A stretch of DNA of 49,048 nucleotides, taken from contig CACDFC010000009.1 of NCBI GenBank assembly GCA_902552035.1, positions 1 to 49,048 of the forward strand, read 5' to 3'. The notes under the pieces were generated by a model that saw only the letters and a list, made by a program, of their open reading frames with translations, was not told the DNA's origin and ran no database searches. Positions 45,016 to 47,970 of this stretch are shown here, piece by piece (the first letter of the stretch is position 1; each line of letters starts with the position of its first letter). Both the position numbers and the translations under genes were made by a program. This stretch comes from an uncultured Pelagibacteraceae bacterium (GTDB lineage Bacteria; Pseudomonadota; Alphaproteobacteria; Pelagibacterales; Pelagibacteraceae).

Positions 45016-45570
45016 TTATTTTTCTAACACAAAAATTCCTAATTCAGAAAAAAAATTATGAAATTTCAAATTTTTTAAGTTAATTTTTATGTTTCTATGT
45101 CTACAATAATTTTCAAAATCTTTAATTGTGCACATATGTAGGTTTGGTGTGTTGTACCATTCATTTGGTAAATTTTCCGTAACTGGCATTGTACCTTTAA
45201 AAAGCAAATGCAGCCTAACTTTCCAGTGCCCAAAGTTTGGGATTGATACAATAGCTTTTTTACCGATTCTTAATAATTCATTCAACACATTTTCAGGATC
45301 TAAAAAAGCTTGCAAAGTTTGACTAAGAATTACATAGTCGAAAGAGTTATCTGGAAACTGCTTTAAATCTTTTTCTGCATCACCCTCGATGACTGTTAAA
45401 CCTTTTTCAACGCATTTTTGTACATTTGATTTTGATAATTCAATTCCTCTGATATCTTTACTAATATTTTCGTTAATATATTTCATTAACTCACCATTTC
45501 CACATCCAACGTCTAATATTTTAGAATTTTCAATTACTAGTTTTGCAATATTATAAAATTCTTTTTTCAT
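45016..45570 (-). CDS. metW: Methionine biosynthesis protein MetW (SAM-binding)
   Basis: ILDVGCGNGELMKYINENISKDIRGIEL...SFDYVILSQTLQAF...NEWYNTPNLHMCTIKDFENYC; overlaps metX by 4 nt. Confidence 0.95.
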   Translation of the reverse strand: MKKEFYNIAKLVIENSKILDVGCGNGELMKYINENISKDIRGIELSKSNVQKCVEKGLTVIEGDAEKDLKQFPDNSFDYVILSQTLQAFLDPENVLNELLRIGKKAIVSIPNFGHWKVRLHLLFKGTMPVTENLPNEWYNTPNLHMCTIKDFENYCRHRNIKINLKNLKFHNFFSELGIFVLEK

Positions 45571-46688
45571 TTAATATTTTCATAAGAAGTATTTAAAAAA
45601 TTCTTAACGGTGTTTAGAAAGTCTGGAACATCAAGTAAAAAAGAGTCGTGACCTTTATCAGATGAAATTTCAACAAATCCAACATTTTTACCAATGGCAT
45701 TAAGAGCTATTACTATATCTCTATTTTCAGAAGTTGGATAAAGCCAATCTGAGGTAAAAGATATTATAAAAAATTTTGTATGACTTTTTTCAAATGCTTT
45801 TGATAAATTACCACCAAATTTTTTTGTAAGGTCAAAATAATCCATTGCTCTAGTAATATATAAATAGCTATTCGCATCAAATCTATCAACAAAAACTGAT
45901 CCTTGATATCTTAAATAACTCTCTATTTGAAAATCAGCATCAAAACTAAATTTTAAATCATCCCTTTCTTGCAGCTTTCTTCCAAATTTTTCTTGAAGAC
46001 CTACTTTAGATAAATAAGTTATATGTGCTGCCATTCTTGCAACTGCAAGTCCTTTATCGGGTTGTTTGTTTTGCTCTTGGTAAAATCCTTCCTGCCAATT
46101 TCCATCAGCCATTATTGATTGTCTTCCAAGTTCATTTAGAGCTATATTTTGAGCAGAATGGCTTGCGGTACAAGCAATTGGAATAGCTGTTAAAGCTTTA
46201 TTGGGAAAATTTGAGACAAACTGAAGTACTTGCATTCCACCCATAGATCCTCCAATAACACTAAACAACTTTTCAATTTTAAAATACTCTAAAAGATTAT
46301 ATTGAGCATTAACCATATCGTTTATTGTGATTACTGGGAAGTTTGTGCCGTAAGGTTTTTTAGTATTTGGGTTAATATCACTTGGCCCAAAAGATCCCAT
46401 ACAACCACCTATAACATTTGCTGCAATTACGAAATATTTTTCTGTATCAATAGCTTTTCCTGGCCCAAGAGCGTAACTCCACCAACCATCTTTTTTTGTA
46501 ATTGGATTTGTTCCTGAGGCAAATTGGTCTCCAGTCAGTGCATGAAAAATTAATATAGCATTATTTTTTTCACTATTTAGTTTTCCGTATGTTTCATAAG
46601 CCAAAGGAAAATTATTAATTGTTTGACCACAATCTAACTTTAATGGTTTTTCAATAATTATTTTCTTAATATCTTTAAATTTATTCAT
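45567..46688 (-). CDS. metX: Homoserine O-acetyltransferase
   Basis: LDCGQTINNFPLAYETYGKLNSEKNNAILIFHALTGDQFASG...VIGGSMGGMQVLQF...SSDKGHDSFLLD. Confidence 0.96.
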   Translation of the reverse strand: MNKFKDIKKIIIEKPLKLDCGQTINNFPLAYETYGKLNSEKNNAILIFHALTGDQFASGTNPITKKDGWWSYALGPGKAIDTEKYFVIAANVIGGCMGSFGPSDINPNTKKPYGTNFPVITINDMVNAQYNLLEYFKIEKLFSVIGGSMGGMQVLQFVSNFPNKALTAIPIACTASHSAQNIALNELGRQSIMADGNWQEGFYQEQNKQPDKGLAVARMAAHITYLSKVGLQEKFGRKLQERDDLKFSFDADFQIESYLRYQGSVFVDRFDANSYLYITRAMDYFDLTKKFGGNLSKAFEKSHTKFFIISFTSDWLYPTSENRDIVIALNAIGKNVGFVEISSDKGHDSFLLDVPDFLNTVKNFLNTSYENIK

Positions 46689-46717
46689 ATATTTTTGCTG
46701 ATGAATTGGAGAAAAAA

Positions 46718-46774
46718 AACTTATTTAGCGGTTTTTTTTAAGCGCTCGCAATTCAGTTTAAATCAGCGCAAGTT
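46718..46774 (-). ncRNA. SAM-II riboswitch in the metX leader
   Basis: Minus strand ACTTGCGCTGATTTAAACTGAATTGCGAGCGCTTAAAAAAAACCGCTAAATAAGT keeps SAM-II landmarks: CGCTGATTTAA, TTGC, AGCGC (P1 3' strand) and GCTAAA-AAG 3' pseudoknot segment; located directly upstream of metX. Confidence 0.9.
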
Positions 46775-46775
46775 A

Positions 46776-46804
46776 TGTCTACAATAAAGATTTTTATATG
46801 TCAA
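46776..46804 (-). promoter_or_regulatory. Predicted metX promoter just upstream of the SAM-II aptamer
   Basis: Minus strand perfect -35 TTGACA (46804-46799), 17-nt spacer, TAGACA (46781-46776) as a weak -10; predicted start falls at the 5' edge of the aptamer P1. Confidence 0.5.
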
Positions 46805-46822
46805 ATTTTATGAGAATTTTAC

Positions 46823-46847
46823 TTATTTAATTTAAATAAATTATAAT
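46823..46847 (+). promoter_or_regulatory. Predicted hisC promoter -10 (TATAAT 46842-46847) with an adjacent 17-bp palindrome (46823-46839)
   Basis: TTATTTAA-T-TTAAATAA is a perfect palindrome with 8-bp arms, immediately 5' of an exact TATAAT. Confidence 0.35.
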
Positions 46848-46878
46848 TTTACTATATATACCAGAAATATATAAAATT

Positions 46879-47970
46879 ATGAATTTAACCAAATTTAAAA
46901 AACTAAAATTTCAATCTTATAAACCAGGAAAATATGAAATTCCAAATTTGAAGGAAACTAGAAAAATAATTAAATTGTCTGCAAATGAGTCTGCGTTGGG
47001 TACAAGTTTAAGAGTTAAAAAAATTTTAAAAAATAATATAAGTACTTATAAATATCCAGATTATACTTCTAAATTATTAAGAAAACAAATTTCAATTAAA
47101 TTTAAATGTAACACAAACAAAGTAATTTGTGGATCTGGATCGGACGAGATTATTCAAATGCTATGTCAATTATTTTTGAGCAAAGGTGACCAAGTCATTG
47201 TTCCAGAATTTAGTTTTTTAATGTATAGAATTTATGCATCTATTTCAGGAGCTAATGTTATTTATTCAAAAGAGAAAAACTATAAGATCTCAGTAGATAA
47301 TATAATTAGCAAGGTAAATAAAAAAACTAAAATTGTCTTTTTAGCAAATCCTAACAATCCTACTGGTACTTATCTTTATAGAAATGAATTAATCAATCTA
47401 AGAAAAAGATTAAGAAAGGATATTTTATTGGTAATAGACGATGCATATTACGAATATATGAAGGATAAAAATTATGCATCAGGATTAAAGATTTTTAAAA
47501 ATTTTAAAAATGTTTTTATATTGAGAACTTTTTCTAAAATTTATGGATTAGCTGCCTTAAGAATTGGATGGGGCTATGGTGATAAAAATATTATTGACGC
47601 TCTAAATTTTATTAAACCACCTTTTAATGTCAACGAAATTGCACAATTATGTGCGATTGAAGCACTAAAAGATAATAAATTTATTAATAAGTCAGTTAAA
47701 CATAATTTATATTGGAGTAAAAAAATAAAAAAGAATCTGGAAAAATTTGATATTTACTCAAATAAAACGAGTGCTAATTTTCTTTTATTGAATTTCAATC
47801 GATGCAAACTGTCAGCAGTAAAAATTGAAAAAAAATTAGAAAAAAAAGGGATTATACTAAGAGAAATGAATACCTATGGAATTGATAATCATTTAAGATT
47901 AACAATTGGAAATAGTGCAGAAAATAAATTATTTCTAAAACAAATTAAAAAAATATTTAAAAATGTTTAA
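46879..47970 (+). CDS. hisC: Histidinol-phosphate aminotransferase (class I/II aminotransferase)
   Basis: IIKLSANESALGTS...ICGSGSDEIIQMLCQLFL...LANPNNPTGTYL...FSKIYGLAALRIGWGYGD. Confidence 0.92.
   Translation: MNLTKFKKLKFQSYKPGKYEIPNLKETRKIIKLSANESALGTSLRVKKILKNNISTYKYPDYTSKLLRKQISIKFKCNTNKVICGSGSDEIIQMLCQLFLSKGDQVIVPEFSFLMYRIYASISGANVIYSKEKNYKISVDNIISKVNKKTKIVFLANPNNPTGTYLYRNELINLRKRLRKDILLVIDDAYYEYMKDKNYASGLKIFKNFKNVFILRTFSKIYGLAALRIGWGYGDKNIIDALNFIKPPFNVNEIAQLCAIEALKDNKFINKSVKHNLYWSKKIKKNLEKFDIYSNKTSANFLLLNFNRCKLSAVKIEKKLEKKGIILREMNTYGIDNHLRLTIGNSAENKLFLKQIKKIFKNV

Follow-up and report, generated by a model that had tools for sequence, protein, structure and literature searches.

A candidate anti-aptamer expression platform of the metX SAM-II riboswitch in a genus of Pelagibacteraceae

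The window analysed here is the whole stretch of 49,048 nucleotides from an uncultured Pelagibacteraceae bacterium. Its metX gene is preceded by a leader with SAM-II features, which raises the question of how SAM binding could be passed on to the gene. Terminator prediction gave no intrinsic terminator in positions 46500-46950, also none at the run of U residues (U-run) that follows the aptamer. No Shine-Dalgarno (SD) sequence was found before metX; the leader reads GCUAAAUAAGUUUUUUUU, without a purine-rich SD ahead of the ATG. The candidate considered here is a strand downstream of the aptamer that can pair back onto it.

The metX leader and its aptamer

All coordinates given for the metX locus refer to the minus strand. 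The gene for homoserine O-acyltransferase (metX, 45567..46688, start ATG at 46688; NCBIfam PRK00175, 509 bits) is followed consecutively by metW (45016..45570; TIGR02081, 229 bits), which overlaps the end of metX, and by gloB, while hisC is found in the opposite orientation. The nearest named matches of the metX protein are from uncultured Pelagibacteraceae single cells and from 'Ca. Pelagibacter', in line with a Pelagibacterales (SAR11) origin. A well-conserved promoter precedes the leader. Its -35 box is TTGACA (46799..46804, columns conserved at 97-99%), and its -10 box is TAGACA (46776..46781; genus pattern TAnAnn at -12 to -7, with T-12 at 97%, A-11 at 97% and A-9 at 94%). In 162 of the 167 leaders from the genus of the window, the distance from the first T of TTGACA to the first G of P1 is exactly 35 nt. 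Standard promoter spacing would thus place the transcription start at that G (46769). A transcript that starts at P1 has been noted for SAM-II generally (PMC1273637).

The initial annotation had assigned the leader to SAM-II, and this is borne out by a covariance-model scan. A full-length alignment to RF00521 (model positions 1-79) covers 46704-46779 with 29.3 bits (E 1.5e-4 in a scan of 801 bases, 4.2e-5 against the whole genome). The RF01726 match places the SAM-II aptamer at 46715..46775. The RF00521 gathering score (36 bits) is not reached, so that the leader is unlisted at the default Rfam threshold, and the metX leaders of relatives from the same genus are likewise below it. This cut-off is strict for the order, since even L170, a g8 locus with the SAM-II sequence that was crystallised, scores no higher than 34.1 bits.

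The P1 helix, the L1 element GAUUUAA, UUGC and the GCUAAA core are all present in order. The strands of P1 are GCGCU (46765..46769) and AGCGC (46742..46746), according to the RF00521 alignment. The 3' strand of the P2 pseudoknot is GCUAAAUAAG (46720..46729; from the same alignment and the sequence), and the U-run, here U8 (46712..46719), follows directly. On inspection, P2 pairing is possible as ACU/AGU in the window and is weaker in some relatives, which have UCU/CCU and AUG variants. Among the 157 distinct leaders, aptamer positions 1-11 and GAAUUGC are invariant, and GCUAAA is kept. The context also fits, with the aptamer upstream of metX-metW and the promoter just before P1. By these aptamer features, the metX leader is predicted to be a SAM-II riboswitch. 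The aptamer itself is not new, because SAM-II before metX of 'Ca. Pelagibacter ubique' was already reported in 2009 (Meyer et al., PMC2704228).

A separate SAM-II/SAM-V-like motif, GUCCUGAUUUA-n-CUUGCURGGAC-n-GCUAAAGGAG-n-AUG, occurs in the same genome (locus L002, C7:30516-30590, minus strand) and also at L223, L229 and L231. In this motif, the SD comes straight after GCUAAA, and small frames follow (in L002 a frame of 57 aa, near the tmRNA). Rfam does not list the L002 copy at E 0.5. L002 is the second RF00521 hit in this genome. With no long gene after it, it first resembled a false positive; it is in fact located before the 57-aa frame, and it was set aside.

The downstream strand and its conservation

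The initial annotation had described a 12-pair helix in which CAAUUC (46708-46703) and AUCAGC (46702-46697) pair with GAAUUG (46754-46749) and GCUGAU (46767-46762), leaving a bulge of 7 nt. These coordinates are exact, and the bulge corresponds to 46761-46755. The helix is real and is part of a larger one of 24 bp; its outer AUCAGC half is kept in only 85 of the 167 leaders. In the minimum free energy (MFE) fold, the optional outer part UCAGC (46697..46701) pairs with GCUGA (46767-46763), the core CAAUUCA (46702..46708) with UGAAUUG (46755-46749), CUC (46709..46711) with GAG (46747-46745), and AAAAAAAAC with GUUUUUUUU. The pairs beyond those already described are thus CUC/GAG, U46755/A46702 and 9 bp in which the U-run, together with G46720, pairs with the A-run and C at 46739-46731. 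No base between G46720 and A46702, both included, is left unpaired. As had been proposed, RNA folding makes this helix mutually exclusive with P1, and it also excludes the 5' strand of P2.

For the window leader, the MFE fold has -17.9 kcal/mol, versus -8.3 kcal/mol when P1 is held and the pseudoknot strands are open. When the spacer was dinucleotide-shuffled and the aptamer and U-run were left unchanged, 3 of 1000 shuffled sequences folded as stably. Over the 157 distinct leaders, the median z of such spacer shuffles is -4.5, and in 90% of the leaders at most 5% of the shuffles are as stable. In full-length folds without ligand, the anti-aptamer fold beats P1 in 99% of the leaders, by a median of 5.4 kcal/mol. 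Any control must therefore be kinetic, with SAM acting before the strand emerges. Folding along the growing transcript agrees with this order of events: P1 remains the best fold up to the synthesis of the A that follows CAAUUC, at which point the anti-aptamer hairpin takes over. On these folding predictions, it is very probable that two competing folds exist.

Conservation was analyzed in 167 leaders of the genus of the window, 157 of them distinct. These were gathered from metX matches (L010-L038, L039-L118 and further searches), and the aptamer was sought without requiring the downstream strand. A U-run of at least 5, mostly 7-8, followed by AAUUC is present in all 167. The full arrangement of U-run and CUC-n-CAAUUC is also found in all of them, with small variants in a few. 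By column in the 157 distinct leaders, CUC is conserved at 94-96%, the C before AAUUC at 99%, AAUUC at 100% and the next A at 93%; thereafter, conservation is 36-54%. The CUC columns are paired at 97-99%. The base between CUC and CAAUUC varies and may be A, U, C or none. The downstream complement is thus conserved in related leaders, with an inner part that is universal; the lack of conservation that the initial annotation had named as a refutation is not observed. Changes in the outer GCUGA/UCAGC helix (UUAGC, UUGGC, AAUCAGU) are mostly of the kind that G-U pairing tolerates.

Such conservation could also reflect a signal for a protein or a small RNA, with the complementarity to the aptamer as a by-product. 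This is improbable. U5-CUC-n-CAAUUC has a single occurrence in the genome and is therefore not a general protein site, and each of the three elements CUC, CAAUUCA and U-run has a matching partner in the aptamer. In addition, some variants have changed in sequence and kept their pairing. The variant in L014, CUAGCAAUUC, forms 7 contiguous pairs with GAAUUGC, so that pairing is kept in another way. L027 and L249 read CUCGC-AU-AAUUC, with 5 pairs to GCGAG and 5 to GAAUU, and their U-run is only U5. That spacer shuffles are seldom as stable also speaks against a by-product. What can be said in favor of a protein or RNA signal is that covariation is neither possible nor seen. Covariation of 46697-46708 with the aptamer, which the initial annotation had proposed as a check, was not found in the genus: the RNAalifold consensus is the anti-aptamer fold, without a covariation bonus. 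No such support is possible, because the aptamer side is invariant. A correlation between the lengths of A-run and U-run is weak (r 0.27) and was not used as covariation.

Some further observations concern the genes behind these leaders. In two single-cell genomes (L090 and L109), ATA or ATT is found in place of the metX ATG, with leader and frame otherwise intact; this is possibly a non-standard start. The metX matches from G283 (L253), G262 (L256), G073 (L258) and G035 contain one or two in-frame TAA codons and may be pseudogenes or matches that extend past the stop. Most genus members without a SAM-II match are also without a metX match (G110, G199, G206, G224, G237 and others), and a metX match is lacking in 3 of the 40 more complete genomes. 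As the two matches are absent together, metX and its leader seem to have been lost together.

Possible effects on metX expression

We favor a SAM-II riboswitch that has the downstream anti-aptamer strand as its expression platform. As a whole mechanism, this is tentative, and we hold it with slightly less than even confidence. RNA polymerase would cross the U-run and pause on it, and SAM may capture the pseudoknot meanwhile. The SAM-bound pseudoknot would directly abut the U-run, and metX mRNA would be lost. The most likely cause is that polymerase is released within the U-run; alternatively, Rho or an RNase could act on the U/C-rich strand, which is then exposed. When SAM is scarce, polymerase would continue, CAAUUCA would emerge, and the aptamer would be drawn into the long anti-aptamer hairpin. 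In this state, SAM could not bind, the U-run would be buried, and metX would be made. If the strand is functional, this would be a minimal switch of about 80 nt that uses neither terminator nor SD.

SAM is probably the OFF signal. This sign requires an effect at the mRNA level, because the aptamer state gives the ribosome, if anything, the better access. In 79% of the leaders, the region from -20 to +13 opens less in the anti-aptamer state than in the aptamer state, which points against SAM as an OFF signal at the level of translation. The same figure leads to a translational switch of opposite sign, in which the anti-aptamer hairpin, 6-15 nt before the start, would block initiation by burying the U-rich stretch to which ribosomal protein S1 could bind on an mRNA without an SD, while SAM would free it and turn metX on. 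Among the 85 leaders that carry an equivalent of the outer helix, 82 have its end 6-10 nt ahead of the start codon, and metX has no SD, both of which fit such a switch. However, the opening differences between the states are modest, SAM-II is regarded as repressing methionine genes, and in the same organism metY, the gene of the partner enzyme, is repressed by SAM-V. As activation of metX by SAM also makes little metabolic sense, we regard the opposite sign as unlikely.

It is very improbable that the freed strand masks the start codon. This is attractive in single folds (AUUCAU/AUGAAU in the window, and L028 and L085), but native starts are no more masked than 38 donor gene starts substituted for them (mean rank 0.498, 157 leaders), and the idea was rejected. 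The anti-aptamer state leaves the start codon more open in just 53% of the leaders, and the beginnings of the metX proteins vary (MN, MS, MD, MG, MI).

For the favored mRNA-level platform with SAM as the OFF signal, termination at the U-run itself is a possibility that we find somewhat doubtful. P2b has only 2-3 bp, and no classical terminator is predicted at the U-run, both of which count against it. Judged by the sister genera g9 and g10, where it is the loop of an antiterminator hairpin, the U-run may by descent not be a termination tract. An output by termination only would also not need a strictly conserved strand that is made after the U-run. Concerning Rho, it is encoded in all six complete relatives that were tested, and no convincing match was found in the present assembly, which is 80% complete. 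A more specific variant, in which the SAM-bound pseudoknot on the U-run is the terminator stem itself and is cancelled by the anti-aptamer strand beyond the U-run, would imply that the whole genus, whose members are very abundant in the ocean, swapped the classical terminator/antiterminator for this arrangement; we consider it rather unlikely.

The strand might also be a folding clock or lock only, which limits the time for SAM binding and then inactivates the aptamer without any output, like the bhmT linker. The crossover right after CAAUUCA in the folding trace is consistent with this, and inactivation of a SAM-II by a downstream linker has been published (PMC11508383). However, a lock without an output in the SAM-bound state would protect nothing, and the degree of conservation suggests a direct effect. 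We judge a mere lock to be quite unlikely.

Control of metX may be mild in any case. In HTCC1062, the genes with a sixfold change under sulfur limitation include bhmT and metY but not metX (PMC5069961). The absence of strong regulation by sulfur limitation, the score below the Rfam gathering value and the dominance of the anti-aptamer fold could be taken to mean that the aptamer no longer binds SAM and that the leader has decayed or is constitutive. This is most improbable, as the invariant first 11 positions and GAAUUGC and the retained GCUAAA (157 leaders) argue that the aptamer is maintained genus-wide.

Sister genera and known SAM-II platforms

In the family f2 and the genera g8, g9 and g10, a hairpin and U8-9 come after the SAM-II aptamer of metX. 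Folding of examples from these groups gives an antiterminator, weak in g10, between the 3' strand of P2 and the 5' side of this hairpin. SAM-II in the sister genera thus seems to work as an OFF switch that terminates transcription. Most of the SAM-II aptamers before bhmT-like and metF genes of the family have a terminator as well. The metX leaders of g5 and g7 have GAGG or AAGGG in P2, then a hairpin without a U tract that moves this element near the start codon, which suggests translational control. The bridging hairpin in g5 (L201-L204) and g7 (L196, L198 and L200) resembles the distant SD of S. meliloti metA. Only the genus of the window has neither terminator nor SD at metX, among the genera in which this leader was seen (for g6, the only SAM-II seen was at a different gene). 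This comparison indicates that the platform has been replaced within the family. Fusion of an ancestral U9 to P2 by deletion of a terminator was considered and is weakened, as the nearest genera (g9 and g10) already have the U-run after P2, there as the antiterminator loop, with the terminator intact. Riboswitch expression platforms usually evolve too fast for tracing.

One of the sister genera bears on the structural work. We take the SAM-II-WT sequence used there to be that of 2QWY. Two g8 genomes (L170 and L171) contain SAM-II-WT, as printed in PMC8494917, without a single difference. Three bases (GAU) past the aptamer, both have the terminator GCCCAG-UUUAG-CUGGGC-U9, and the GCUAAAAAGGGG tail and CCC...UUUAG fold as an antiterminator before the 3' arm of the hairpin is made. 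The Sargasso Sea metX SAM-II is described in reviews as acting by SD occlusion (PMC10907184, PMC9373788). The genomic context speaks for transcription attenuation, be it alone or alongside SD occlusion. In its host genomes, the crystallised 'translational' SAM-II thus has a strong terminator behind it, and this matters for the way in which the structure has been interpreted. It shares the gene and the aptamer fold with the window, and the identical sequence belongs to a sister SAR11 genus.

The initial annotation had seen the window as going beyond the usual SD sequestration. This wording understates the known coupling to terminators, which is found in most sister genera and in the literature (PMC1273637, PMC2258182). 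In alpha- and beta-proteobacteria, SAM-II is found with terminators at an unusually high frequency (PMC2258182). Compared with terminator-type SAM-II (the Agrobacterium metA family, Corbino 2005, PMC1273637, and sister SAR11), the window shares the promoter just before P1, the aptamer core and the expected OFF logic. In the sister genera, however, the antiterminator arm is formed by the 3' strand of P2 (GCUAAA...GG), and a GC hairpin and U9 come next. The window leader lacks such a hairpin; there, the strand that competes is complementary to P1, to the 5' strand of P2 and to the A-rich loop. By sequence comparison, its platform matches neither of the known SAM-II expression platforms in its defining features.

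The closest case by gene, aptamer class and genus is the metX SAM-II of Pelagibacter ubique HTCC1062, for which the accessible part of PMC2704228 lists the aptamer only, without an expression platform or an anti-aptamer strand. A genus-wide anti-aptamer strand was not found described in the SAM-II literature that was searched. The tandem SAM-II/SAM-V of Pelagibacter bhmT has a likewise downstream block: sequence behind the aptamer abolishes the SAM-II response in the full-length RNA, and a poly(U) is near the aptamer (PMC11508383). It differs in having its own terminator hairpin, a SAM-V aptamer and an unlike blocking-linker sequence. We predict that the anti-aptamer strand is a genus-specific replacement expression platform. 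With it, metX and SAM-II carry at least three platforms in one order, namely a terminator, an SD bridged by a hairpin and an anti-aptamer strand, the latter in 167 leaders.
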